DNA of 23,056 nt, taken from positions 1 to 23,056 of the IMG/VR virus record IMGVR_UViG_3300046514_000296; one strand, given 5' to 3'. Within the stretch, counting starts at the first letter, position 1, and each line of letters opens with the position of its first letter. Both the position numbers and the translations under genes were made by a program. Source of the stretch: a virus. Positions 1 to 20,691 of this stretch are shown one piece after another. A model generated the notes under the pieces. That model was not told the DNA's origin. It did not search any database and saw nothing but the letters and a program-made list of their open reading frames with translations.

Positions 1-118
1 AATATGCTCCCCGTCACGACTGGTCGCAGGCCCGAGTGACCATGATCTGGAGAATGCCACCGCGATAGATGCTCGGGCGCTTCTGGCCTGGCGGGATCAT
101 CTTGACGGGGAGCATATT
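1..118. repeat. 16-bp perfect inverted repeat at the window edge
   Basis: Bases 1-16 are the exact reverse complement of bases 103-118, with 86 bases between. The 103-118 arm is ordinary coding sequence on the minus strand: it holds the last bases of one radical SAM gene and the first codons of the next. The 1-16 arm introduces a TGA exactly where the second radical SAM gene would reach its iron-sulfur cysteine motif. The likeliest explanation is a fold-back or assembly artefact at a contig end. A true inversion is possible but less likely. Confidence 0.9.
14..115 (-). CDS. Second radical SAM protein, N-terminal fragment (cut by fold-back)
   Basis: An ATG at 115-113 opens one base after the TAA of the preceding radical SAM gene and reads 33 codons to a TGA at 16-14. 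The peptide ends with RGGILQI followed by MVTRACDQS. That is how many radical SAM proteins look just before their Cx3Cx2C iron-sulfur motif: a basic Arg-Gly-Gly strand, then Thr-Arg-Ala-Cys as the first cysteine, here residue 30. The next cysteine would be expected at residue 34, but the frame is closed by the inverted-repeat arm at 1-16, so the stop is probably artificial. A GGAG lies about 11 bases upstream of the ATG. If the reading is right, two radical SAM enzymes are encoded in tandem. The family call rests on only 33 residues. Confidence 0.5.
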   Translation of the reverse strand: MLPVKMIPPGQKRPSIYRGGILQIMVTRACDQS

Positions 119-881
119 AGCCGTTACTCCATTTCGTGAACGTCATGTCCCCGGTGCCGATACCACAATAGGAGCAAGCCTCGATCGCGTCGGCCCTGGC
201 CCACTCCTCGAAGTCGCGGCCCTCGGTGATCCTGAGATCGCAGAAGCCCGACCGCCCGTAAGCCGCCACGAACTCCTCGGTGCGGTTGGGGATCAGATCG
301 TACCAGTGCCCCAGCGGGCATTTGGCCACGATCCCGGAGGCAAGCACCTGGAGACAGTGACGCATGCAGCATCGATAGGGGACCGCAACCGGCCGCGGCT
401 CATGGTGGTAGCCGTGCTGGCAGAACAGGAGGTCGGCGGGATTCTCGGGATGAAAGCGGTCGATCGTCACTCCGGGCAGATCGTGGCGAAGCACCTCGAG
501 CCGGCGATCCCATTCCGCGACGCCGATCCGGTCCACGTAAATCGGATACCTCGATACGAACACCAGCGAGCAGAGCGCGAAGACGGGAGCGGCCACCTCG
601 TGCCAGTTTGCGCCCAGCAAGTAATAGCCGTTGGTCACGATGCTGACGGGATGCCCCCGCGCCGTCGCGCGAATGAAGCCCGCAAGATCGGGATGCAGAA
701 ACGGCTCGCCCCCGCCGATGACGAGATATTCCCACTCCACGAGCGCTTCCAGCTTGTCCAGCCAGGGCGCGAAGTCCTGCGCCTGATAGGTCGCGCGCCC
801 CCGGTGGGGGATGCCGTGCTGACATCCGGTACACTTGAGCGTGCAGTGCGAGACCGGCTGTAGCTCGATGCGCGGGATCAC
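117..881 (-). CDS. Radical SAM protein with C-terminal cysteine-rich (SPASM-like) region
   Basis: The 254-residue protein starts at GTG 881-879, which overlaps the stop of the upstream PRTase-HAD gene in a GTGA and has AAGGAG (891-896) nine bases before it. A frame-open start further upstream would overlap that gene by about 180 bases and adds only low-complexity Arg/Ala/Gly sequence. SHCTLKCTGC gives the Cx3Cx2C motif (C13, C17, C20) that holds a 4Fe-4S cluster and S-adenosylmethionine. GGGEPFLHPD (from residue 56) and SIVTNGY match the glycine-rich and strand motifs of the MoaA/PqqE-like radical SAM fold. Further cysteines at about 171, 172, 176, 188, 214, 236 and 239 suggest an auxiliary cluster of SPASM or twitch type. 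The enzyme should make a 5'-deoxyadenosyl radical in the cytoplasm; its substrate is unknown. Its coupling to the enzyme before it and a second radical SAM gene after it suggests one pathway. Confidence 0.88.
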   Translation of the reverse strand: MIPRIELQPVSHCTLKCTGCQHGIPHRGRATYQAQDFAPWLDKLEALVEWEYLVIGGGEPFLHPDLAGFIRATARGHPVSIVTNGYYLLGANWHEVAAPVFALCSLVFVSRYPIYVDRIGVAEWDRRLEVLRHDLPGVTIDRFHPENPADLLFCQHGYHHEPRPVAVPYRCCMRHCLQVLASGIVAKCPLGHWYDLIPNRTEEFVAAYGRSGFCDLRITEGRDFEEWARADAIEACSYCGIGTGDMTFTKWSNG

Positions 882-2047
882 CCGCAGCAGCTCCTTCGTG
901 GAGGTGTCGCTGCCGGTTCCGGTGGCGGCACGAGCACCCGCCCCAGCGCCGGGCAGAGCACGCGCTTGCCGGTTCGCTGCACGATGATGTGGGCCTGGCC
1001 AGGGCTCGACTCGGCGAACAAGGCGCAGGCCGAGAGTCCATAGTGAGCCGCCTTCCACTCGCCCACCTGCTCGTCATGCCCCCGGCCCGGTTCATACCCA
1101 AAGTCACGCAGCATGAGCAGGCCCACCGTGATCTGGTGGCGCGCCAGCCAGGCCGTGCACAGCTCCCGGTAACGCTCGTGGCGGGCCGAGACGATTAGCG
1201 GCACCTGCCGCCGCCTGGGCAGGTAGAGCGGCTTGGCGGTCTGAAGATGAATCCGGTACTGGCCGTTGTCGTCGTCGTTGGGTGGCGTGCATTCCTCGCA
1301 GAGAATGCCGTCGAAGTCAAAACCCATCGCCTCGCCGTGGCCAGCATTGGGCCAGTTCCATTCGAGGAAATGCTGGCCTGGATAGAGGGAGTGAAAGACA
1401 TCCACTGCGCGGATCGCCTGGGGATGGCAGTAGATGACCGCTCTGGTGATCTGCGCACCGGGCCAGTGCTTCTTGACCATCTCGGTGCAGGCAGACATAT
1501 CCCTGCCGAGCGCGGCGGTGTCATCGATCAGCAGGATATGCCGGGGCTCCGTTTGGTACGGCTTGAAATCCAGGCCCATGCGCCCGCCGTGGCCGGGATC
1601 GACCACCCCATACACCTTTGACACACACCATAGCGGCAAGTGCAGACAACTCGCGATCAGACCGCCAGGGATTAGCCCTGACCGCGCGATGGCCACTACA
1701 GCGTCGATGTCGGGAGGCAGACTCGCAGCCAGTTCAAGCGTGTCGTGGAAGAGTTGAGCAGTCGTGATGATGACCGAGGGATCGATGTGCCGGCCTCGCA
1801 AGCCGGCTGGCGTCTCGTGGGGCACAGAACCATTCGTGCTGTTTCCTTGGAAGGGCGACATTGGCACCATGTGTGGACCAGGAGCCGGCCAGGGCGATAA
1901 CGGCTGGACAACGGCCGGTGCCGGTTCAGACGGTACTGTAGCACGCAGCGTGCCGTCGAGCACGGCGCGTGCGTGCCGCCGATGCTGCTCGTTGTCCGAT
2001 ACGAGCATGGCTTCCAGCGTGGCCCGGTACTCGGGTGAGATGCTCAC
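878..2047 (-). CDS. Phosphoribosyltransferase-HAD hydrolase fusion protein
   Basis: The chosen start is GTG 2047-2045, overlapping the stop of the fibre gene as GTGA, with AGGG nine bases upstream; this gives 389 residues. After about 80 linker-like residues there is a type I phosphoribosyltransferase domain: the AVVAIARSGLIPGG substrate loop, then HILLIDDTAALGRD (acidic pair near 175-176), the classic PRPP-binding motif. A HAD-superfamily domain follows: GFDFDGIL (nucleophile and acid Asp near 244 and 246), IVSARHERY as motif II, EWKA as the motif III lysine and AESS as motif IV. PRTases transfer ribose-5-phosphate from PRPP to or from a base, and HAD enzymes usually remove phosphate, so the fusion could make or break a nucleotide and dephosphorylate the product. 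The gene sits between a tail fibre and radical SAM genes in one coupled transcript. The domain calls are firm; the pathway is unknown. Confidence 0.87.
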   Translation of the reverse strand: MSISPEYRATLEAMLVSDNEQHRRHARAVLDGTLRATVPSEPAPAVVQPLSPWPAPGPHMVPMSPFQGNSTNGSVPHETPAGLRGRHIDPSVIITTAQLFHDTLELAASLPPDIDAVVAIARSGLIPGGLIASCLHLPLWCVSKVYGVVDPGHGGRMGLDFKPYQTEPRHILLIDDTAALGRDMSACTEMVKKHWPGAQITRAVIYCHPQAIRAVDVFHSLYPGQHFLEWNWPNAGHGEAMGFDFDGILCEECTPPNDDDNGQYRIHLQTAKPLYLPRRRQVPLIVSARHERYRELCTAWLARHQITVGLLMLRDFGYEPGRGHDEQVGEWKAAHYGLSACALFAESSPGQAHIIVQRTGKRVLCPALGRVLVPPPEPAATPPRRSCCG

Positions 2048-3252
2048 GGGAAATACCCTGAAACGGTGATCGTCGCCCCGCCTGGCGGTGGCGGGCAGAT
2101 GCCATGATCTATTGGAGCGATCAGTGTCGGGTAAGGGCAATCCACGTCGGACTCGAATGCCCAGATCGGCGGCGGGTATCCGGGTCCACCAGGACTACTC
2201 ACCGGCCCAGGCGCGAAGCTGAAACTGAACGGCCCATCAACTTTCGTGCAGTCGCCACGACGACCGATGTAAACCCGATTGGGAGTGGGTATGACTGATT
2301 CGCCATAAGGGCCAGCGCCACCGCCGTAATTGTAAAACGCGACACATTTGCACGGCCCGCTGGGGATCGGATCGGGGTCAACGACCACGCAGTAGCCGAG
2401 ATAGGGGTCGATCTCCCAGGTGTAAGGTGTGCCCAGGTCGGGATAATCCACACAGGATGTCCCGTCAGCAAACAACCCAGGCGGTTGTACCATCACCCCG
2501 TTCTTGATGCAGCACAAATGACCGCTATAAGAATACTCGGTTGTGCTGGCTAGACCGAACCCATAACCAAAATCACACTCTATGTACACACCGCCTTCCT
2601 CATCCACGCCGCAGAATATATAGTAGCCGTAGGACAACGGTCCTGGATTGGAAACCAGCACCGTCTTCATGATGAGTCCCCAGCTTGTATCGGCATTAAT
2701 GCATGGGTTGCCGTCTCCGTAAAGCCCAAAGATACAAGATGCCGGGCTGTTATTGCTGATGAACTGCACACGCCCCAAAAGTTCGGTCTGGGTTAAGTCT
2801 GCCGCGTGCGGCACGCTGGTTGCGTTCGCGTTTCCGTTCACCCAGGACCCATTAGCATCGGTCACCAAGAACTGAGAGGGGACCAGAATTCCATTGCAGC
2901 ATGTGTAGCCCGGCGGTCCGGGCTGGGTCGTGCTGATCGGCTGAGCCCCGCAAGCACCCACGGACCAGCTAAAGCCAGCGCCGTTGTCCACGCAATTGCC
3001 CTGCGCGCCCAGCTTGACCGTGTAGCTGCCGGCAGTGCAGGGACGAAAGCAGAACACGCCGTCGCCGTCCGCGTTGCCGCTCTTGATCGTCGTGGTGCCC
3101 AGCAAGATGGTCACCGGCGCGCCGGCTGCTGGCACCGGAGTATAGACCAACCCTAGACCTTCCTCGGTAACAGTGTAACAACAACACTTGTAAACAGTAA
3201 CACAAGTGTCCCTGCCTGCGGCACAACGGACGATGAATTGTGCAGTTGGCAC
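2044..3252 (-). CDS. Cysteine-rich putative tail fibre / tail-tip protein (402 aa)
   Basis: The protein is 402 residues and starts at GTG 3252-3250, three bases after the stop of the 807-residue gene. No named domain is recognised. It has about 24 cysteines, including CCC near residue 23, three CC pairs and single CxC spacings. An N-terminal section (GAPVTILLGTTTIKSG up to GSYTVKLG) looks like a transthyretin/carboxypeptidase-regulatory beta-sandwich. The rest is rich in Gly, Tyr, Pro and Asn, as in secreted or virion adhesins. No signal peptide is visible. It is the last structural gene, and its stop overlaps the PRTase-HAD start. Parts near 2500-2720 and 3160-3200 look richer in A+T than the surrounding genes, which may mean exchange of this segment. 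A receptor-binding role is inferred from position and composition only. Confidence 0.6.
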   Translation of the reverse strand: MPTAQFIVRCAAGRDTCVTVYKCCCYTVTEEGLGLVYTPVPAAGAPVTILLGTTTIKSGNADGDGVFCFRPCTAGSYTVKLGAQGNCVDNGAGFSWSVGACGAQPISTTQPGPPGYTCCNGILVPSQFLVTDANGSWVNGNANATSVPHAADLTQTELLGRVQFISNNSPASCIFGLYGDGNPCINADTSWGLIMKTVLVSNPGPLSYGYYIFCGVDEEGGVYIECDFGYGFGLASTTEYSYSGHLCCIKNGVMVQPPGLFADGTSCVDYPDLGTPYTWEIDPYLGYCVVVDPDPIPSGPCKCVAFYNYGGGAGPYGESVIPTPNRVYIGRRGDCTKVDGPFSFSFAPGPVSSPGGPGYPPPIWAFESDVDCPYPTLIAPIDHGICPPPPGGATITVSGYFP

Positions 3253-3255
3253 TCG

Positions 3256-5679
3256 CTACTCGTACACCTCGTAGGTGTTTCCGCCCACGGTCCATCGCAT
3301 GTAGAGCGGAAACCACGTATAGTAAGCCGGCGTTCCTGAAAAGTTCTGACCGAACGCATTCAGTCCGCCGCAGCCGTACCGCCCATGCGCACCGATCCAC
3401 GATGCCGTGTTACCCGAGGGCGTGTACACCAGCGTCTCGCTGCCCGAGCCGCCCGGTCCTGACCACGAGAAATTGAGGTTCGCACGGGGGATCGGCAAGC
3501 CGTTGTCGCCGCAGCAGACCACATGGTTGAGCGGTATCTGGGGCAGATGGACCGTCATCGTGGTGCTGGGCGGCGGGGTCAGGTCGGCGCAGCCCGCATC
3601 CAGCGGAGCGAACGTGAACGTGGCCGTCATCATGCTGCCGTCGCATGTGGGAGTCGCGCTGGAGGTCCAGGTATTGACCAGCACCAGAGGCTCGCCGGTC
3701 TGAGCATCGCCCAGGTAGTAGCCGCAGAACGAATCATCGTAACGGCAAGAACCAAGGGGATAGGTCCACAACTCGCATGTCAAATTGTCGCCGTCGCAGA
3801 ACACGCGGTAGAAGTATTCGATATAAGAACCGCTGGCGTCATAACACTCCCTGGCTACACTGTCATCGTAGTACATGGCGGGCGCAGACCAGGAAAAATG
3901 ACCTGTCTGCCAGGTGCCAGTCGGGTAGTCATGGGTCAGCTTGAAATTCGAGAAGTGGCTGTCGGTTCCCGTCGCACCCTTGACGCCCAGCTCCACCCCG
4001 CCACAAGCAGAGCAGCTCACCGATTCGTTGCACGGCGGCGGCTCGAAGTTGATCTCCTGGGCATCCCCGCCCGAGAACGTGCATTCGCAGCCCGAGACGC
4101 TGACCGAGATCCAGTATTGACCCGGCTCCGGGGGCACCATGCAGCAGGTGCCCGAGTGGTCGGTCGTGCAGGTTGCGACCGTGGCCCCGTCCTGATCGAC
4201 CATCGTGGCCACTGCACCGGCAATGTAGTTGGTCTGCACGACCGGCGCGGTCATCGTGGCCGAGGTGACAGGCAGCGTCGTCTGATCGTGGGGAGGGCTG
4301 CCCGTGCCGCCGTAAAACGACGTTGCCGGCTTGCTGAAGGAGAAGCTGGCCGAGTACGTGGAGCCACAGGTCGGCTCGACGGCCACGACATAATCGACAT
4401 ACCACGGGCCGGCGCTGGGGGGACTGTATCTGTCATAGTTCCAGTCGGCCGCGATCGACGTTGCCCAGTTGGCCGCCAGGGGTGCCTCGGGGCACGGGTC
4501 GGCGTAGACACGCAAAGTCAGGGTCACGGTCGTCGGCTGGTAGGTCCAGAAGTAGTAATAGACTCCCCGGCCGCTGACCAGCGTGTCGCAGCCCGGCTTG
4601 GGAAGCGTGACCGACAGGTTGGCAGACGGTGGATCGACCAGGTCCACACAGCCAGCGTCGATCGAATCAAACGTGAACGCGGCCGCCACCGCGTCGGCAT
4701 CACACGTCGGAGACACCGTGGAAGTCAGGAGCTTGACCAGGGCCGGTGCGACCGACGACCCTGACTCTCCCAGGTAGTAGCCGCAGATCGCGTCGTCGTA
4801 GGGGCACTGCTCTACGGGCAGCGTCCACAGCTCGCAGCGGAGGTTGTCGCCGTCGCAGAAAACCCGGTAGAAATACTTGACCGTAGCCCCGTCGCCGGGG
4901 TCGCACATGCCATAAGCCGCATCAGCGTAGAACGAGGCGGGAGGGCTCCAAGAGAGATCCAGGCTCTGCCAGCATCCCAGGTCGGGATGCCAGTAAAACG
5001 CGAGGTCGGCCAGGTCGTCCGTGCCGGTCGCGCCGTTCTGATTGAGCGGAGTCCCGCCGCAAGCCGAGCACCACATGGTCGGCACGTAACCAGGGACCGA
5101 GCCCCAGAGGTTGTCGGAGTCAAACGGGATAAGCGCGGTCGCGTTGCCACCCGCTCCCTGCCAGAAATGATCGCCGTTGGCGTCGCTGATCTTCTGCTTG
5201 CTGACATCGATCCAGTAGTCGCACGCCTTGATGTACTGGATGTAGGACGGCTGGGGACCGCATAAATCCTGCACCAGCACGCAGATCGGCGTGTCGATGC
5301 ACTCGCAGACCGCCCACACACCATCGGTCCAGTCCAGCGCCAGCGCATTGGGGCCGGTGAGCACGCCCCCGGAATTATAAACCGTGACGGTCTCGCCGTC
5401 CGGAGTGAGCGTGCCGCCCGATCGCGAGCAGAGCGTGACAGGACCCGAGCCCAGGGTGAGGCCGCTCGCCGCCGAGATGACCTGGCCGGGAGCCAGATAA
5501 CCCCATGTGCCCGTGGAGGGCTTCGTGGTCCGGCCCCGACCCACCATCGGGTAACGGGCCGTGTTGGCTTCCTCGACCTGGCTGAACGCCGCTTCATGGC
5601 GCTCGAACGTCTCAGGGCGCAGCAGCACCGGCTTGCCGCCCAGCGGATCATCGGGTGGTGGAACGCCGGCAGCAGGCAT
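3256..5679 (-). CDS. Cysteine-rich repeat-containing tail-tip / receptor-binding protein (807 aa)
   Basis: The ATG directly follows the TGA of the 132-residue gene. Residues 1-130 are paralogous to that whole neighbour: both share ARYP..GRGRTT, ISAASGL.LGSG and a DG.WA ending. Residues about 204-360 and 556-713 are two copies of a domain of about 157 residues that opens with CSACGG and GATGTD, and carries EYFYRVFCDGDNL or KYFYRVFCDGDNL, CELWT, CGYYLG, a PTCD motif and a final DAGC. Between the copies lie beta-rich stretches, including one resembling a carboxypeptidase-regulatory fold. I count about 37 cysteines, mostly conserved between the two copies, so they probably make domain-internal disulfides or bind metal. 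No catalytic motif or signal peptide is seen. The position after tape measure and tail-tip genes suggests an adsorption structure, but no family is recognised. Confidence 0.65.
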   Translation of the reverse strand: MPAAGVPPPDDPLGGKPVLLRPETFERHEAAFSQVEEANTARYPMVGRGRTTKPSTGTWGYLAPGQVISAASGLTLGSGPVTLCSRSGGTLTPDGETVTVYNSGGVLTGPNALALDWTDGVWAVCECIDTPICVLVQDLCGPQPSYIQYIKACDYWIDVSKQKISDANGDHFWQGAGGNATALIPFDSDNLWGSVPGYVPTMWCSACGGTPLNQNGATGTDDLADLAFYWHPDLGCWQSLDLSWSPPASFYADAAYGMCDPGDGATVKYFYRVFCDGDNLRCELWTLPVEQCPYDDAICGYYLGESGSSVAPALVKLLTSTVSPTCDADAVAAAFTFDSIDAGCVDLVDPPSANLSVTLPKPGCDTLVSGRGVYYYFWTYQPTTVTLTLRVYADPCPEAPLAANWATSIAADWNYDRYSPPSAGPWYVDYVVAVEPTCGSTYSASFSFSKPATSFYGGTGSPPHDQTTLPVTSATMTAPVVQTNYIAGAVATMVDQDGATVATCTTDHSGTCCMVPPEPGQYWISVSVSGCECTFSGGDAQEINFEPPPCNESVSCSACGGVELGVKGATGTDSHFSNFKLTHDYPTGTWQTGHFSWSAPAMYYDDSVARECYDASGSYIEYFYRVFCDGDNLTCELWTYPLGSCRYDDSFCGYYLGDAQTGEPLVLVNTWTSSATPTCDGSMMTATFTFAPLDAGCADLTPPPSTTMTVHLPQIPLNHVVCCGDNGLPIPRANLNFSWSGPGGSGSETLVYTPSGNTASWIGAHGRYGCGGLNAFGQNFSGTPAYYTWFPLYMRWTVGGNTYEVYE
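3541..5070 (-). repeat. Two copies of a ~157-residue cysteine-rich domain
   Basis: Copy 1 is encoded by 5070-4600 and copy 2 by 4014-3541, both in the 807-residue gene. The order of conserved elements is the same: CSACGG, GATGTD, a Trp-Ser-Pro or Trp-Ser-Ala strand, YFYRVFCDGDNL, CELWT, YDD, CGYYLG, PTCD, ATFTF or AAFTF, DAGC and a Pro-Pro-Ser strand ending in LP. About 585 bases of other sequence separate them, so this is an old internal duplication rather than a simple tandem array. Confidence 0.85.
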
Positions 5680-6078
5680 TCAGTTGCACCTCGACGCCGC
5701 CCAGTCGCCGTCGCTCCACGTGAGCTTGATGGCCTTGTCGCCGGTGCTGGCCGTGATGGCATCGCCGGCATTGAGAACTTGCACCATTTCTCCCGTTCCG
5801 GTCAATGCGCTGCCGATGCGGTCGCAGAGTTCGACCGTCCCGCTGCCCAGCGCCAATCCACTCGCTGCTGAGATCGTGCCCCCCGAAGCCAGCTTGGCCC
5901 AGCAGCCGGCGCTCGCACTGGTCGTCCTGCCTCGGCCCGCCCGAGGATAGCGTGCGTTGTTCGCGCCCTCGATCCGATCGACCGCCGCCGCGTGCCGCTC
6001 GTAGGTTTCCGGCGAGAGCGCGATCGGCTGCGCCGGGTCAACGTAGGGATCAGGATTGGGAACGCCAGGCTGAGCCAT
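5680..6078 (-). CDS. Small tail-tip protein, paralogue of the N-terminus of the next gene (132 aa)
   Basis: The ATG at 6078-6076 shares one base with the upstream TGA (TGATG), and the stop abuts the next ATG, so translation is coupled on both sides. The whole protein aligns with residues 1-130 of the downstream 807-residue protein: a proline-rich start, PETYERH against PETFERH, the ARYP and GRGRTT motifs, ISAASGLALGSG against ISAASGLTLGSG, then a beta-rich segment ending in a Trp-Ser-Asp-Gly-Asp-Trp-Ala strand. The shared N-terminus probably docks to the same tail-tip partner, so this short copy could cap or space the site used by the long fibre. No family is recognised and there are no catalytic motifs. 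Confidence 0.7.
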   Translation of the reverse strand: MAQPGVPNPDPYVDPAQPIALSPETYERHAAAVDRIEGANNARYPRAGRGRTTSASAGCWAKLASGGTISAASGLALGSGTVELCDRIGSALTGTGEMVQVLNAGDAITASTGDKAIKLTWSDGDWAASRCN

Positions 6079-7028
6079 CAGGGACCCGGAGGCGGTGCCC
6101 CCAGACGTGTCGCGAGGTCGATGTTGAGCAGGTCGAAATCGGACTCATCGTAGCAGTCCAGCGTGAGTGACACCGGCGCGGCACCGACCGCGAGACGGTG
6201 GCCGGAACCATCCAGCGGCACCGGATCGGACACCTGCTGTCCCTGGTTCATGATCGCCTTGGTCTTGCCGGTCGTGGCGTCGATCTCGTTGCAGCCGGAA
6301 TCGAGGATCACCTTCCTCCAGCCCTTGCGGTCGATCATGAACGGATAAGTGACCGTGTAATAATAGATCTGGGCATTGGAATCATACTGCGGCTCCGAAG
6401 TGGTGATGATGCCCAGCTTGACCGTGTGCACATCGAAGCCGTTCCACGCCGCCTTGTTGATCGTGTCGCGGAAGGTCTCGGCGAGGGTAAGGTCGAACGC
6501 GGCCACCAGCTCATTGCGGGTGACGGTCATCGTGGAGCGTGAATCGTCGATCGTGATCGGCGGGTCGAAGGGATCGCCGGCACTGTTTCTGACCGGGTTG
6601 CCGTCCTTGTCGAAGTAGACGACCTTCTCCGTCCGCTCGCCGCCGAAGGAAACCTTGATCGGCCAGAGCGAGGGATCGTTCCCGAACGTGTTCATATCAT
6701 AGGGAGCATAATTCAGCGTCACGGTCCACTGGAGGCCCGATCCATCCTGGTCGCAGGACGCCTCGATCGTGTCGATGAAGCTGCCGGCGTCATACTCGTA
6801 GTTGGGATCACCGACCGCCAGGCCGTTGTGATAGAACTGCCCGATGTAGGGGACATGGCCCCCCGTCACGGGGTCGATCGCCGAGCGGACCTGGAGGGGG
6901 CCGACCTCGGGACCATAGGTCTCGACGACGAACGTGCGCACGTAGTGCCGCTGCCAGAGCCGGTTGATCGACCCCGAGCGGGTGCCGTCCATCTTCTCGC
7001 GGACAGACTTGATGCCGGGGGTGGGCAT
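6078..7028 (-). CDS. Putative distal tail / baseplate-type structural protein (316 aa)
   Basis: The gene starts at ATG 7028-7026, with no good Shine-Dalgarno sequence in front of it, and ends in a one-base overlap with the next gene. Its place immediately after the tape measure is where siphophages keep the distal tail and tail-tip proteins. The sequence is mixed alpha/beta with many aromatic strands (YVRTFVVETYG, WTVTLNYAPYD, IYYYTVTYPFMIDRKGW). A central section, RTEKVVYFDKDGNPV, and the paired statement of what looks like a Dit-like beta-galectin layout are only suggestive. It has few cysteines, unlike the genes after it. I do not recognise the family; the assignment is positional. Confidence 0.5.
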   Translation of the reverse strand: MPTPGIKSVREKMDGTRSGSINRLWQRHYVRTFVVETYGPEVGPLQVRSAIDPVTGGHVPYIGQFYHNGLAVGDPNYEYDAGSFIDTIEASCDQDGSGLQWTVTLNYAPYDMNTFGNDPSLWPIKVSFGGERTEKVVYFDKDGNPVRNSAGDPFDPPITIDDSRSTMTVTRNELVAAFDLTLAETFRDTINKAAWNGFDVHTVKLGIITTSEPQYDSNAQIYYYTVTYPFMIDRKGWRKVILDSGCNEIDATTGKTKAIMNQGQQVSDPVPLDGSGHRLAVGAAPVSLTLDCYDESDFDLLNIDLATRLGAPPPGP

Positions 7029-14398: not shown

Positions 14399-16597
14399 TC
14401 AAATCACTAAACCCCCGTGCACGAGACTGCCGCCGACCAGGCCGCCGCCGATCGGAGCAAAGCCGCCTGTAAAGACCTGCTCCACGCCCGCCGTGACGAC
14501 CGGGATGTTGGCCGTGTACTGATGGGTGTAAACGTCATCGAGCCAGTCGATCACGTTGTGCGTCGATCCTACGGATGCACCCAGAAAACGGACATATTTC
14601 GGTGCCGCGCCGGCCGTGTACATGCCCAGGCCGGTCGTCGCCACCGCATTGTTGACCGCCAGTGCACCCGTCACGCTGGACGAACCCACGTTGGCGCTCA
14701 CGGTGAGCTTGTTCCAGCGATTGAGCAGCAACGGGACGCCGGTGTCCTGGTACGTGGTGCCGTTGTACCATTCCAGGTGCAGGCTGTTGGTGCCCAGAAC
14801 GATGCACTGCACCCGCACATGAGTCGGCCCGGTGATGCTGTCGGTTGCGTCCAGAAATTGGAGCGCGCAATTACTGTCGTTGGTCGTCTCGTAACGCCAG
14901 TGGCTCAGCGCTACTCTCGGAGTGGCCTGCGCCGGGTTGGCACTCCATGCTTGGTTGACCGCAAAATCATTGATCCCGCCCGTGGCCGCCGAGTTATCGA
15001 TCTTCACGGCCTTCGCGCCGTGATTGACATGCGCCGCATCGAGGGTCGCATTGGCTCCCACTGACGCCCAGAGCGCGCCGAACGATTCGCAACCGTCATA
15101 AAGATTGTTGCAATTGCAAACGTAATCCTCGGTGACGATGATCCGGCCGATGTTGTCCGTGGTGACTGCGCCGACCGGATAATAAAATATCATACAGATG
15201 GTGCCACTCGCGTTCTGCACGGCCGTTGGGTAGCCGGTATCCCATAAAGATACATTCGCCCCAGTGCCGATGTCCATCGGCGGCCGGTCGATCCAGGTCG
15301 CGCCGCCATCGGTCGAGATGACCGCACCGATCCCCCAGGCCGTGCCGTAGCGCATCCCGAAAGCACACAGGAGATTGCCGCTCGCCAGCCTGATCAGGTC
15401 GGGGCTGAACGCGCAGCCATACCCGGAGATCGGGGTGGTTGCCGGCAGATTGATCCGCGTGGGAGTCGTCCAGGTGACGCCGGAATCAGCCGACGTGCAG
15501 GCCATGAGATCGCCCACGGTATCGACGCGCATCACCGCCAGATAGTGACTGGAGTCCGTCGTCTGGATGACCGAACCTTCCGCGAACTGATCCACATTAT
15601 TAAATGCGATTGTCCCCTGCACGACCCAGTTCGAGCCGTTGACCGGATCGCTGCCGGCCGGACATTTGAGCAGCCACTGATGCCAGCCCGTATCGCCCGT
15701 GATGGCGGCATACGCCGGTAGATAGAGGTCGCCGCCCGGCGATTTCTCGACGAACCGCCCATAGGACGCGCCGCCATCGACGCCGTAGGTCCAGGGGACA
15801 GTCACGGGATTGACCGGAGTGGGGAAGAGCGCCAGGTTGGTCCAGGTCGCGCCGCCATCGGTCGATTTGCCGATGTACAGTTTGCTGTGGCCGCCGTTTT
15901 CGTTGGTGTTGGTGTCCGTGTTATACGCAATCAGGAGCGTGCCGTCCGCCAGTTCGACCACGCTGCGCGGCTCGGAGCAATGAGTGGCGTCATGAGCAAC
16001 CAGCGTGGTCTTTACTGGGAACGTGACGCCGCCATCGGTCGAGGACAGCATGAGGATATCGCCGTTGCTGCGATCATTATTCGAGCCCGCCCCGGCCATG
16101 ATCCAGCAGAGGATTTTCCCATTGAGCCCGGCCCCGCCGCCGTGGATGCCGCCCTGGTTCTTGAGCAAAACCGAGACAGGATTGGCGTTAAAGCCGGTCC
16201 TGTCGGTCTGGTTGTAGATGTCGGTCGGGCCAACGATCGCTGTGGCTGGCCCGACCGTCACCGCATAGCTCGAAACGCTGGTCGCCGCCGCGTTGCCGTA
16301 GTAGACGTAAATCGTCGAGGATGCTGCTGCCGCCACTCTCGGCACTTTCACCAGCAGGTAGACCGCGCTGTTGACAGTATCGTTCCCCTCCAACGCGAAG
16401 TTGAGCAGCGTTACCCCGTCCGAGTCCGTGACCCGGATATCTGACCTGTCGGCCTTGGCGTGCGCGTTGATCGACGTATAGGCCGCGCCGGTAAGCGAGA
16501 TGCCAACCTGATAATACGCGAGCGCACTGGTGGCATTGGCCGTGTTATCGACCGTGATCGGTTGCCGGTAGAGCCAGCTCGGGTTATACCAGGGCAC
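14399..16597 (-). CDS. DUF2341 / sialidase-type beta-propeller virion protein (732 aa)
   Basis: The start is GTG 16597-16595 with AGAGGA eight bases upstream. Residues 1-115 match the DUF2341 pattern, opening PWYNPSWLYRQPITVDN, later DIRVTDSDG and STIYVYYGN. Residues about 140-490 form a sialidase-like propeller: four Asp-box motifs (STDGGVTF near 186, STDGGATW near 245, SADSGVTW near 369, STDGGATW near 428) and blade strands such as RSVVELADGTLLIAY and PDLIRLASGNLLCAF. Residues about 500-700 look like a concanavalin/LamG-type lectin domain ending in a Gly-rich tail. A full set of three catalytic arginines, the acid Asp and the Tyr/Glu pair cannot be confirmed by eye, so it may bind glycans without cutting them. 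There is no signal peptide. It sits directly after the capsid decoration gene, suggesting a virion-surface role. Confidence 0.8.
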   Translation of the reverse strand: MPWYNPSWLYRQPITVDNTANATSALAYYQVGISLTGAAYTSINAHAKADRSDIRVTDSDGVTLLNFALEGNDTVNSAVYLLVKVPRVAAAASSTIYVYYGNAAATSVSSYAVTVGPATAIVGPTDIYNQTDRTGFNANPVSVLLKNQGGIHGGGAGLNGKILCWIMAGAGSNNDRSNGDILMLSSTDGGVTFPVKTTLVAHDATHCSEPRSVVELADGTLLIAYNTDTNTNENGGHSKLYIGKSTDGGATWTNLALFPTPVNPVTVPWTYGVDGGASYGRFVEKSPGGDLYLPAYAAITGDTGWHQWLLKCPAGSDPVNGSNWVVQGTIAFNNVDQFAEGSVIQTTDSSHYLAVMRVDTVGDLMACTSADSGVTWTTPTRINLPATTPISGYGCAFSPDLIRLASGNLLCAFGMRYGTAWGIGAVISTDGGATWIDRPPMDIGTGANVSLWDTGYPTAVQNASGTICMIFYYPVGAVTTDNIGRIIVTEDYVCNCNNLYDGCESFGALWASVGANATLDAAHVNHGAKAVKIDNSAATGGINDFAVNQAWSANPAQATPRVALSHWRYETTNDSNCALQFLDATDSITGPTHVRVQCIVLGTNSLHLEWYNGTTYQDTGVPLLLNRWNKLTVSANVGSSSVTGALAVNNAVATTGLGMYTAGAAPKYVRFLGASVGSTHNVIDWLDDVYTHQYTANIPVVTAGVEQVFTGGFAPIGGGLVGGSLVHGGLVI
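15292..16042 (-). repeat. Near-identical DNA repeats at the Asp-box codons
   Basis: A 25-base stretch at 15292-15316 recurs exactly at 15841-15865, and its last 16 bases recur again at 16027-16042. All encode the Ser-Thr-Asp-Gly-Gly core of an Asp-box. Exact DNA identity goes beyond what the protein motif needs, which suggests recent blade duplication or gene conversion. Confidence 0.8.
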
Positions 16598-17078: not shown

Positions 17079-18584
17079 TCAGGTACCAGCAGATCTAACA
17101 GATGCACGGTACTCCTGTTTGGCAACCCCGCAATCGTAGTATCCACGGAATTGGATGCCAAGCACATTAAAGTCCGCATCAGCGCTCTCTACCACGGGCT
17201 CTTGCCGGCCGTTGAGGAACGCCACCTGGATCAAGGGCAGTTCCATCGGATCGGCGATCAGCCACCAGGCCGTGGTCGAGTTGCCGACGATATTGGTGTT
17301 GGAGAGATAGCGTGACATCACGGTCTTGTACTTGTTGGCCCAGACGTTGCGGTTGGGCACCTTGGTCTGCGTCGAGGCCCCGCCCGTGTTGATGATCAGC
17401 GAGGTCATCAGCTCGTTGGCCGTGATCTCCAGCTCGGGCGGCACAAGCAGGATGCTGGGCGAGATGGCCAGCGGATCAAGGTTGGGGTCGGTCTGCTTGG
17501 CGAACGCAAGCTGCGCCGCCTGAAGACCAGTGCTCGAAAGAGCCGACCCGGCACCCGTGGAGACGTTGCCGCGCCCCGAGGTGTAGAACGTGCCCACGTT
17601 GGCCAGGAACTCGGTCCAGAACAGCACGTTGAGGCCGATGGCCGCACCGCGACCCAGCCGCATCGGCACCTGGGAGAGCGCTCCGAGATCATCGTTGATG
17701 ATGTCCGCTCTCGTCACGGCGAACATCTTGCCGAAGGTATCGACCTTGTTGCTGTACGCCACTTCCGAGGCGGTCGCGTGTTCGAGCTCGCCAGCCGGCC
17801 CGACCTTGGCGAACATGCTGTTCATGACGAACGAGTAGCTGAAGAACTGCTTGAAATCCCTGGCGTTGCCGATCGCCGCGATGTCCCGCCACGAGCTTTC
17901 GACGGCATTGAAGCCCACCATCAGGAACTTGTTGGCGATGTTGCTCATGATGCCGGGCAGCGAGAGCGTGGAGATGCCCTCGGCGCGGATCTCGCGGGGG
18001 TTGCTGCGGCCGGGGAAGGCCGCTTCCAGGAGCGACCGGGGATCGGAGCTGAGGAAGCCCTGGTAGCCGTTCTCGCGAGCGCCCAGGAGCAGGAGGTCAC
18101 GGAGGCCGATGCCGTGGGGAAACTGGTCGTCGGAGGCGTTCAGGGTCTCCTGATCGAAGAACTTGTCCAGCTCCTTGAGCCCGCACGACCGAGCGACCGT
18201 GGCCTCGATGATCTTCTGGGCCACCTGCCGCCCGCCCTTGACCATCGTGGCCCCGTGGCCCCGCGTGCGCTCGAGGCGCATCACCTGAAGCTCGACCTCC
18301 TCGAACTTGCTCTTGTTCTCGAGTGCCACCTCGCCCAGCCGCTTGAGTGCGGGGATCAGCGCCGGCCGGTCGGCCATCGCCATGTCGAGAAAGGCCGTGA
18401 TCTTGTTTTGGCGCTCGATCTCGCCCTCGTGCTTGGCGACGATCTGGTCGAGCGATTCGGTGATCTTCGGCCCCTCCCTGGCGGCTTTGATTTCCTCGTC
18501 GTAGAGCGACTGGAAATAGGTCCTCTGAACATCGCTGAGGGCCTTGGGGTCGAAACCCTTGGCCTCAAGCCACTTTTCAAACAT
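17079..18584 (-). CDS. Major capsid protein from an internal in-frame start (501 aa)
   Basis: Inside the fusion frame, ATG 18584-18582 (MFEKWLEAKGF) has AGGAGA at 18597-18592 with a seven-base gap, as good a ribosome binding site as any in the window. Translation from it would give a separate capsid protein of 501 residues lacking the protease. Its first ~95 residues are charged and helical (KITESLDQIVAKHEGEIERQ), like the delta/scaffold region of HK97-type capsid proteins, and the rest (SLLEAAFPGRSN to the Tyr-rich C-terminus) should be the HK97 fold. Excess capsid over protease would then be made by translation from a nested start, as lambda does with C and Nu3. The start is predicted; product sizes are not known. 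Confidence 0.65.
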   Translation of the reverse strand: MFEKWLEAKGFDPKALSDVQRTYFQSLYDEEIKAAREGPKITESLDQIVAKHEGEIERQNKITAFLDMAMADRPALIPALKRLGEVALENKSKFEEVELQVMRLERTRGHGATMVKGGRQVAQKIIEATVARSCGLKELDKFFDQETLNASDDQFPHGIGLRDLLLLGARENGYQGFLSSDPRSLLEAAFPGRSNPREIRAEGISTLSLPGIMSNIANKFLMVGFNAVESSWRDIAAIGNARDFKQFFSYSFVMNSMFAKVGPAGELEHATASEVAYSNKVDTFGKMFAVTRADIINDDLGALSQVPMRLGRGAAIGLNVLFWTEFLANVGTFYTSGRGNVSTGAGSALSSTGLQAAQLAFAKQTDPNLDPLAISPSILLVPPELEITANELMTSLIINTGGASTQTKVPNRNVWANKYKTVMSRYLSNTNIVGNSTTAWWLIADPMELPLIQVAFLNGRQEPVVESADADFNVLGIQFRGYYDCGVAKQEYRASVRSAGT

Positions 18585-19184
18585 GGTGGTTTCTCCTGTA
18601 GGGAGAGAGCCAAGGGAACTCGACGAGGCAGCCACGCTGGCCGTCGTCTGGGGATCTGCCCCGATCGCAACGAACGAGGTTTCAAAGAGCCTGCTTTCGC
18701 GGGCAATGAGCAGCGGACCCGAGACTTCGCGGCCGTTGACCACGGCCTTCTCGCCGGTCTTCAAGAATTCTTGTCTGACAATAGAAGCACCTATTGATGC
18801 CTGCCATTCAAAGCCGTTGCGGGCGTGCGTGAGCACCGACTGCGAGTTGGCATCCTCGCCGGTGATCGAGCCGGTGAGCTCCACGCCTGCGGCGTCGATC
18901 GTGATGACGTCGGTCTGGCCGATGATCTGGGACGATTCGTGGTCCAGCAGGATGGGGATCTTGTCGCGCGCGGCCTTCAGGCCCGAGAGGTCAACGATGA
19001 CCGGGCTGAAGAAGCCCGCCGCCTGCATGACCGCGCCGGTGTATGCCTTGATGGCGAACGTGGGACGCCGGGCGGTGCCGTCGGCGCTCTTCGCCTCAAG
19101 GTCGAGCGCGACCGTTGCGGTGAAGGAAAGCCGCTCGGGCACGGCCGTTTCCGCTGCTCTGGCCTTGATTGCTCGTCTGGCCAT
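17079..19184 (-). CDS. Prohead protease-major capsid protein fusion (701 aa)
   Basis: The chosen start is ATG 19184-19182 (MARRAIKARAAE), eight bases after AAGGAGA (19199-19193). It overlaps the portal gene by 89 bases in another frame; the frame upstream of it is low-complexity shadow. Residues about 15-180 form an S78/U35-type prohead protease: IPILLDHES (His near 82), FEWQASIGAS (Ser near 130, in the SIG motif of HK97 gp4) and RLFETSFVAIGADP (Glu near 168), so all three expected catalytic residues are present. An Ala/Ser-rich linker (TASVAASSSSLGSLP) leads to the capsid part from about residue 201. The protease trims capsid and scaffold during head maturation; the linker is a plausible self-cleavage site. 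Fused protease-capsid genes exist in databases, but the internal start makes this one notable. Confidence 0.88.
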   Translation of the reverse strand: MARRAIKARAAETAVPERLSFTATVALDLEAKSADGTARRPTFAIKAYTGAVMQAAGFFSPVIVDLSGLKAARDKIPILLDHESSQIIGQTDVITIDAAGVELTGSITGEDANSQSVLTHARNGFEWQASIGASIVRQEFLKTGEKAVVNGREVSGPLLIARESRLFETSFVAIGADPQTTASVAASSSSLGSLPTGETTMFEKWLEAKGFDPKALSDVQRTYFQSLYDEEIKAAREGPKITESLDQIVAKHEGEIERQNKITAFLDMAMADRPALIPALKRLGEVALENKSKFEEVELQVMRLERTRGHGATMVKGGRQVAQKIIEATVARSCGLKELDKFFDQETLNASDDQFPHGIGLRDLLLLGARENGYQGFLSSDPRSLLEAAFPGRSNPREIRAEGISTLSLPGIMSNIANKFLMVGFNAVESSWRDIAAIGNARDFKQFFSYSFVMNSMFAKVGPAGELEHATASEVAYSNKVDTFGKMFAVTRADIINDDLGALSQVPMRLGRGAAIGLNVLFWTEFLANVGTFYTSGRGNVSTGAGSALSSTGLQAAQLAFAKQTDPNLDPLAISPSILLVPPELEITANELMTSLIINTGGASTQTKVPNRNVWANKYKTVMSRYLSNTNIVGNSTTAWWLIADPMELPLIQVAFLNGRQEPVVESADADFNVLGIQFRGYYDCGVAKQEYRASVRSAGT
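18592..18597 (-). promoter_or_regulatory. Internal ribosome binding site for the capsid part
   Basis: AGGAGA on the minus strand, seven bases before ATG 18584, within the Ser-Leu-Pro-Thr-Gly-Glu linker codons of the protease-capsid fusion. The linker shows no other reason to use these codons. Confidence 0.65.
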
Positions 19185-20691
19185 CGGTCTGGTCTCCTTG
19201 TTCAATCTGCTGGTCAGCAGTCTGAGGCGGGATGGGGGCTGGCTTGCCGTAGGGTAGTGGCAGGCCCAGCGCGTCGAAGTCCTCCTTGTCGCGGGCGATC
19301 TCGGCGAGTCGCGAGTCGCGGTCCACGCCGTCACGGGCGCACATCTCGGAGAATGTTGTCCCGTAATTTTCGAGGTCGATCTGCTCGCCCCGTGCTTCCT
19401 TCAAGGGGTCGATCATCTCCATCGCCGGCCAGAGCCAACGGTGCAGCCACTGGTCGCTCCGGGTGGTGATGCTGGGGATGAGCTTGATCAGGACCGCCTC
19501 GGCCAGCCAGGCGCGCAGGATCGGGTTCAGGGCCGTCCGCTCCATGCGGGCGCGATCCACGTTGATCGCCCGGTTGAACCGCTGGAGACCGAGCCGGCCC
19601 GAGGAGTAATTCACGTTCGAGTAGTCGCCCGAGGCGATCTCGTAGGTTGTGCTGTGCCCGGTGGCCAGCTCGGTGAGGCAGGTACGGACGAATTCGGGAT
19701 GTCCCGAGGCGGGCTGTTCGGCCTTGAGCTGGCTCATCTTCCAGCCGGCCGGAACCGTCGTCAACATGCGGCGGTCGATGGGGATCTTCTCCCAGTCGGG
19801 CGGGTAGGTCATGCCCTCCTCGGGAGGATTCTCGGTGTAGAGCATGGCCGCGAAGCTCGCCGCCGTCTCGGCGGCAGCGACGGTGGCCTGGCGGTAGCGC
19901 CTCAAGTCGGCGAACAGCCCCAGGCTCTGCGTGAATTCGGGGATGCCCCGGTACTGGCCCGGCCGGGACGCGCGGAACCAGTGGACCACGAGCTTCGCCG
20001 GCACCCGCTCAAACTTGAACAGGCCCCGATAATTAAAGAGGTCTCCTGGATGTTCATACAAGAGATGGTAATAGGCCGGCTTGCGAAGCTGATTCAGCTC
20101 GATACCGTCGATCTGGAGGGGGTCGAGGGGATAAAAGTACGGGGTGGCGATCTGCTCGGCCTCGTACTCGCGGAGGTCAAGTGTCACGGGCTCGAGGTCG
20201 GGGTCGTCCTCGAGGAAGAGGAACGCCTCGCCGTCCACGGCACGCACCCGCCTGAGCAACCACATCTTGTCGGCCAGGCCCACCGCCTCGGCCCACTGGG
20301 AGAATTCGCTCTCGATCAGCGAGTTCAGCTCGCGGTCGTCGGTGAGAAGCTGGAGGCGGGGACCGTCTCCCACCATGAAGTCGGCCAGGGCATCGGCCAC
20401 GCCCGAGGCCCACGAGTTGTTCTGCACCTCGTAGCGGCAGCGGTCGCGGAGCTTCTGCCTGACCTGGGCACTGTTCGCGCCCCTGGCCGAGAGGTTGTCG
20501 GCCTCGCCCCAGTGGCGGATCGTTTCCTCAGAAATTTGCGCGCTATCATAGGATTGTTTGAGCCGGCGTTGATCCGATTCGCGCACGCTGGACTCGCCAG
20601 CCTGGCGGCGGATCGGCTGGCCCCGGTGGTCTAAAATTAGCGCTGCCAAGGGTCCCAGCCGCCACCCGAGGGCGCGCCGCGAGGATACCAC
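19096..20691 (-). CDS. Portal protein, lambda gpB type (Phage_portal_2)
   Basis: The frame is open from a GTG at 20691, which overlaps the preceding gene by 55 bases. TTG 20649-20647 is an alternative start that would give LAALILDHRGQPIRR, close to the usual opening of such portals. The 531-residue product carries the hallmarks of PF05136 portals: YEVQNNSWASGVADALADFM near 87-106, HWFRASRPGQYRGIPEF at 237-253, GDYSNVNYSSGR at 355-366 and a late acidic helix region (MIDPLKEARGEQIDLENYGT). The C-terminal 40 residues are Gln-rich and disordered and overlap the protease gene. The portal forms the dodecameric ring through which DNA enters and leaves the head. Its neighbours are the terminase before and the capsid fusion after, as expected. 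Confidence 0.9.
   Translation of the reverse strand: MVSSRRALGWRLGPLAALILDHRGQPIRRQAGESSVRESDQRRLKQSYDSAQISEETIRHWGEADNLSARGANSAQVRQKLRDRCRYEVQNNSWASGVADALADFMVGDGPRLQLLTDDRELNSLIESEFSQWAEAVGLADKMWLLRRVRAVDGEAFLFLEDDPDLEPVTLDLREYEAEQIATPYFYPLDPLQIDGIELNQLRKPAYYHLLYEHPGDLFNYRGLFKFERVPAKLVVHWFRASRPGQYRGIPEFTQSLGLFADLRRYRQATVAAAETAASFAAMLYTENPPEEGMTYPPDWEKIPIDRRMLTTVPAGWKMSQLKAEQPASGHPEFVRTCLTELATGHSTTYEIASGDYSNVNYSSGRLGLQRFNRAINVDRARMERTALNPILRAWLAEAVLIKLIPSITTRSDQWLHRWLWPAMEMIDPLKEARGEQIDLENYGTTFSEMCARDGVDRDSRLAEIARDKEDFDALGLPLPYGKPAPIPPQTADQQIEQGDQTDGQTSNQGQSSGNGRARAAFLHRNGRARP

Follow-up and report, generated by a model that had tools for sequence, protein, structure and literature searches.

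At the end of a tail-fiber operon in an uncultivated phage, a PRTase domain fused to a HAD phosphatase domain is followed by two radical SAM genes. The fusion belongs to a large, unnamed family that, judged by its conserved residues, is catalytically intact as a family. Relatives of the fusion adjoin sugar-modifying genes, so the cassette probably decorates glycans rather than nucleotides or DNA. Our proposal, held with moderate confidence, is that the PRTase-HAD protein ribosylates its acceptor in two steps and that the most likely target of the cassette is the virion, through fiber glycosylation, with the host surface as the alternative. If this proposal is correct, a widespread unannotated fusion family gains a testable activity (PRPP to ribosyl-glycan), and the fiber operon of uncultivated phages ends in an exchangeable set of sugar-decorating enzymes, with consequences for how phages mask or adjust their receptor-binding proteins.

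A cassette coupled to the last fiber gene

The DNA analyzed here (the window), a 23,056-bp linear fragment from IMG/VR, consists mostly of one minus-strand late operon, with a GpA-type terminase, a lambda-type portal, a fused protease-capsid ORF, and tail and fiber genes. In the fused ORF (17079-19334), an S78 prohead protease is encoded together with a capsid domain, and a 732-aa ORF between the capsid and tail genes (14399-16597) encodes BNR (sialidase-type) repeats and a DUF2341 domain. Relatives of the portal were found on short contigs only, without the tail end. Toward the end of the operon, all on the minus strand, lie a tail gene (6078-7028), a fiber-like gene (3256-5679; 807 aa) and the last fiber-like gene (2044-3252; 402 aa). 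The last fiber-like protein and its neighbor are rich in cysteine (6.0% and 4.6%, respectively, versus 0.4% for the capsid ORF). A scan for promoters and terminators gave no signal above chance.

The first-pass annotation described three enzyme genes coupled to the last fiber gene, and the junctions are as it read them. A GTGA at 2047-2044 overlaps the end of the last fiber gene with the start of the PRTase-HAD gene (878-2047, minus strand; 389 aa, GTG start). At 881-878, a second GTGA overlaps the PRTase-HAD stop with the GTG start of a radical SAM gene (117-881, minus strand; 254 aa), whose TAA (119-117) is followed by a single T and then by the ATG (115-113) of the third gene. This third gene (MLPVKMIPPGQKRPSIYRGGILQIMVTRACDQS; 1-115, minus strand), however, is present for only about 33 codons before the contig end. 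Bases 1-19 of the window repeat bases 100-118 in inverted orientation (95%), a fold-back that is probably an assembly or amplification artefact and that creates an in-frame stop inside the repeat, thereby truncating the gene. Because the contig is a linear fragment, sequence past the third gene is unseen. An antisense ORF (69-863, plus strand) was dismissed as a chance occurrence, since it is the minus-strand frame that carries homologues and a high third-position GC content.

Both enzymes at the end of the cassette had been called radical SAM proteins. The first is complete: it carries CxxxCxxC and GGEP-like motifs (CTLKCTGC and GGGEP), matches PF04055 above the cut-off (E 2e-8; 35 bits versus 29.5), and so belongs to the radical SAM superfamily. 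By eye, its C-terminal cysteines are twitch/SPASM-like. Against the named NCBIfam families, including viperin, QueE and MoaA, it scored at best 29 bits, where the cut-offs run from 131 to more than 500. No relatives were detected in six PRTase-HAD genomes or in 12 phage records, and 343 genomes of the phylum of a planctomycete metagenome-assembled genome (MAG) yielded two partial radical SAM matches and no other relative. A single-sequence structure model of this protein was useless (pLDDT 31). The second enzyme is a fragment, cut after the first Cys of the cluster-binding motif, and its family assignment was supported through homologues in three records (L172, L174 and L178). L172 has the identical stretch RGGILQIMVTRACD, and the full-length protein encoded there hits PF04055 (E 3e-9). 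In L174 (428-1966), the homologue and a Methyltransf_24 domain form a single protein, and the relative in L178 lies, as read by eye, just upstream of a terminase-like gene. Records carrying this second family contained no PRTase-HAD. The two radical SAM kinds resemble each other only remotely (hhalign probability, 23%).

The PRTase-HAD family and its conserved residues

The fusion itself, also claimed in the first-pass annotation, was corroborated by alignment and by predicted fold. Following some 85 unaligned N-terminal residues, a type I, XGPRT-like PRTase domain (approximately 1783-1346) contains a pyrophosphate loop, ARSG (near 1687-1676), and a PRPP motif, DDTAALG (1525-1505). A PNKP-like HAD phosphatase domain (approximately 1339-941) contains motif I, DFDG (1318-1307), the motif III Lys (1054-1052), and a motif IV E-S pair (1012-1007); all are on the minus strand. 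As a single sequence, the PRTase part fell below the cut-offs of Pfam PF00156 (E 0.011) and the NCBIfam xanthine PRTase model (E 6e-7), and matched PDB 4trb at E 1e-3; with the family alignment, an hmmsearch of the PDB reached E 4e-14. A search by PDB code returned no primary paper for 7wzv. The predicted fold (pLDDT 92) matched XGPRT over the PRTase part (Foldseek E 1e-8; TM by target, 0.64 to 0.70), and the HAD part resembled PNKP phosphatase domains. With its PRPP loop, pyrophosphate loop and Rossmann-type fold, the PRTase part is thus assigned, by sequence and model, to the type I PRTase superfamily.

Across 96 sequences, residues G55, D107, G112, D175, D177, G178, R220, K263, E277, and S278 were invariant, and two further residues of the PRTase loops were nearly so (D106 in 94 of 96, R53 in 95 of 96). 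Position 218 is Ser or Thr, mostly Thr, and with the DxDG, Lys, and acidic E-S motifs it completes the signature of the HAD superfamily. Positions 110 and 139, which we take to be the purine-handling catalytic Asp and the purine-binding Lys of XGPRT as mapped through PDB alignments, vary freely in the family and are Ala and His in the window. The family therefore appears to have kept PRPP binding and lost purine recognition, and it does not qualify as a purine PRTase of the XGPRT/HGPRT type. The structural comparison suggested by the first-pass annotation thus returned an XGPRT-like fold, but one that lacks the residues by which the closest PRTases recognize purines. In the predicted model, 43 residues with one helix separate HAD motifs I and II.

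Queried as single sequences against IMG/VR and INPHARED, the PRTase-HAD protein and the complete radical SAM protein had no close relative. The family was opened by a tblastn search against plasmids, with matches in 41 alphaproteobacterial records; those listed aligned over both domains at E values of about 1e-16 to 1e-25. One scan of each sequence collection with an alignment of these matches recovered at least 87 viral and at least 478 genomic stretches. The family is known from metagenomic contigs, and the ORFs of its neighborhoods come from a greedy ORF caller. Most phage copies fall in one supported clade, typically after fiber genes; the clade comprises 39 rows, 37 of them viral and two from planctomycete MAG contigs (support 100/95, midpoint root). 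The nesting of these two contigs in a mainly viral clade hints at planctomycete hosts for its phages. Because copies recur in phages and the catalytic residues are all kept, the family consists neither of unlinked host genes only nor of proteins with a lost active site, the two outcomes that the first-pass annotation had set against its own reading.

Nearest to the window in the tree are L012, L011 and L015 (support 100/97). In L015, a homologue of the tail gene at 6078-7028 occupies the corresponding place, just upstream of the fiber gene and the PRTase-HAD gene. Within INPHARED, the L012 PRTase-HAD had a single match at 24% coverage, and neither the PRTase-HAD nor the twitch radical SAM protein of another relative, L048, had any. 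One planctomycete MAG (L091, L092, and L093) encodes tandem PRTase-HAD-PRTase-HAD proteins of 600 to 680 aa. The fiber-like gene preceding the PRTase-HAD gene is Cys-rich (4 to 8%) in the window and in L011, L015, L017, L021, L022, L023, and L082; in marine relatives it is not.

Neighborhoods of relatives and the proposed function

The late-operon position after fiber genes recurs in the phage relatives, as the first-pass annotation would have it: the PRTase-HAD gene shares the strand of the preceding gene in 62 of 75 phage loci, and that gene is fiber-like in the loci read. Among the 142 proteins encoded downstream in phages were 13 Methyltransf_24, 5 radical SAM, and 4 pyruvyl transferase proteins, the last of the polysaccharide type. 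Sulfotransferases (one cluster of which matches the Gal-3-O-sulfotransferase family), epimerases, cytidylyltransferases, glycosyltransferases, and NDP-sugar enzymes were also present; a few of these cluster labels were given by eye from sequence. A decoration-type gene lay within four genes on the same strand in 25 of the 36 nonredundant phage-clade loci. Control genes from the same loci, lying farther away on the contigs, gave one FkbM methyltransferase and one PMM, with no others among the 25 commonest families. In bacteria, the gene sits in polysaccharide clusters, with 24 of 130 neighbors matching GT2 models and 24 of 130 being GT4-type.

Linkage to radical SAM genes was likewise recurrent. 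A radical SAM gene lay within 3 kb of the PRTase-HAD gene in 14 of 16 records having both and, after removal of redundancy, in 8 of 10, versus 1.6 expected (p ~5e-6 under random placement). The neighborhood search recommended in the first-pass annotation thus found the pairing but not the exact trio of PRTase-HAD and the window's two radical SAM kinds, which was not found in other records, the radical SAM proteins beside the relatives being mostly N-twitch (NF033640, below cut-off), unlike those of the window.

We infer the following mechanism. The type I PRTase domain would take ribose-5-phosphate from PRPP and place it on a nonbase acceptor. This acceptor would be a glycan or else a virion protein, for example the fiber, modified on a sugar or hydroxyl. 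The fused HAD domain would then strip the 5'-phosphate, so that a ribofuranosyl unit remains. The downstream radical SAM enzymes would modify this sugar or the acceptor, in the position held by methyl-, sulfo-, or pyruvyl-transferases in other phages, and the cassette would be made late in infection, together with the fibers. Several observations count against a glycan reading. The two close relatives L011 and L012 have no adjoining decoration gene, and the window's own cassette, as far as the contig reaches, offers radical SAM genes only and no transferase of the glycosyl, sulfo, or methyl type. Methyltransf_24 proteins can act on other substrates, and one of them matched a phage family that carries a DNA methyltransferase annotation. 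In addition, PNKP phosphatase domains, which the HAD part resembles, act on nucleic acid ends.

The last point also serves an account that we regard as quite unlikely, in which the product of the cassette is a modified nucleotide or a small nucleoside-like molecule that serves DNA modification, signaling, or antidefense: the PRTase would join ribose-5-phosphate to a base, the HAD domain would dephosphorylate the product, and the radical SAM enzymes would rebuild the base. The nearest solved relatives of the PRTase-HAD protein are indeed purine PRTases, and the radical SAM enzymes QueE and MoaA act on nucleotides. The complete radical SAM protein nevertheless scores far below the cut-offs for QueE, MoaA, and viperin, and the purine-handling Asp and Lys are not conserved. 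PRTase and HAD domains do co-occur in Ter systems, one phage included (PMC7824862), the link drawn in the first-pass annotation; yet TerB, TerC, TerD, TerF, and TelA were absent from the window proteins scanned (some small ORFs left out) and from the neighbor families listed. With glycan-type neighbors in both phages and bacteria, control genes nearly free of them, and the purine residues gone, nucleotide or DNA modification is the less likely role, and glycan or virion decoration fits better. The first-pass annotation was right in recording a real and recurrent arrangement, with the correct architecture except for the truncated third gene, and probably wrong in its chemistry.

Glycan chemistry might instead serve to alter the LPS, capsule, or S-layer glycan of the host surface, blocking superinfection or changing receptors. 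Bacterial PRTase-HAD relatives occur in polysaccharide loci, and radical SAM cassettes among the glycosyltransferases of pelagimyophage tail-fiber islands stand beside enzymes read as modifying the host O-chain (PMC7029224). Cotranscription with late structural genes next to the fibers would, however, be late for remodeling the host surface, and no membrane or flippase gene was seen in the cassette; as the sole purpose we consider this unlikely. A very improbable option is that the Cys-rich fibers are the substrates of the radical SAM enzymes, which might for example form thioether cross-links, and that the PRTase-HAD gene is an unrelated neighbor. Twitch/SPASM-like radical SAM enzymes often act on peptides, and the complete enzyme has such a Cys-rich tail. 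Among relatives, however, the presence of radical SAM genes is uncorrelated with the Cys content of the upstream gene product (median, 1.8% with and 2.3% without).

Comparison with known systems

Glycan decoration by ribosylation has a precedent in the gPRT-PRP enzymes, for which transfer of Rib-5-P from PRPP to an acceptor and subsequent dephosphorylation are established (CriT-CrpP, PMC10299916; Cj1432, PMC12096443; ORF15, PMC11127046). Examples include the enzymes for K. pneumoniae O antigens, CriT-CrpP of Bcs3 in H. influenzae b (PMC10299916), Cj1432 of C. jejuni (PMC12096443), and ORF15 of C. youngae, where the PRP is fused to a UbiA-type synthase (PMC11127046). The PRTase-HAD proteins likewise fuse a PRPP-using PRTase-like domain to a HAD phosphatase, have members in polysaccharide loci, and presumably, by analogy, carry out the same two steps. 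Unlike Bcs3 and Cj1432, in which the HAD domain is N-terminal, they place the PRTase first; the transferase is a classical XGPRT-like type I PRTase, a short insert replaces the large helical HAD cap (~100 residues in CrpP), the DxD motif is full, and copies are found in phage fiber operons. No gPRT-PRP structure was among the PDB matches listed for two family alignments (matches up to E 1 for one, the best 60 of 92 for the other). Given the reversed order, the small insert, and the XGPRT-like transferase, we do not file the family as a gPRT-PRP member; it may work like these enzymes as an analogue.

Other resemblances are more limited. XGPRT shares the fold, the PRPP and pyrophosphate loops, and a conserved Trp near the hood, but has the purine-specific residues and no fused HAD domain. 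The Ter-linked nucleoside module unites the same two domain types, in contrast to the glycan-type company kept by PRTase-HAD relatives. The pelagimyophage host recognition cluster also combines tail fibers with radical SAM cassettes in the structural region, and includes glycosyltransferases, but belongs to another phage group, and the text of PMC7029224 contains no PRTase or HAD. Tentatively, and as a possibility we hold with some doubt, the XGPRT-like PRTase-HAD proteins could be an independent kind of PRPP-dependent glycosyltransferase residing in bacterial and archaeal polysaccharide loci, with one mainly phage clade capping tail fibers with a decorated ribosyl unit (methylated, sulfated, pyruvylated, or radical SAM modified). 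They would then represent, beside the gPRT-PRP enzymes, another structural solution to PRPP-dependent glycosylation.
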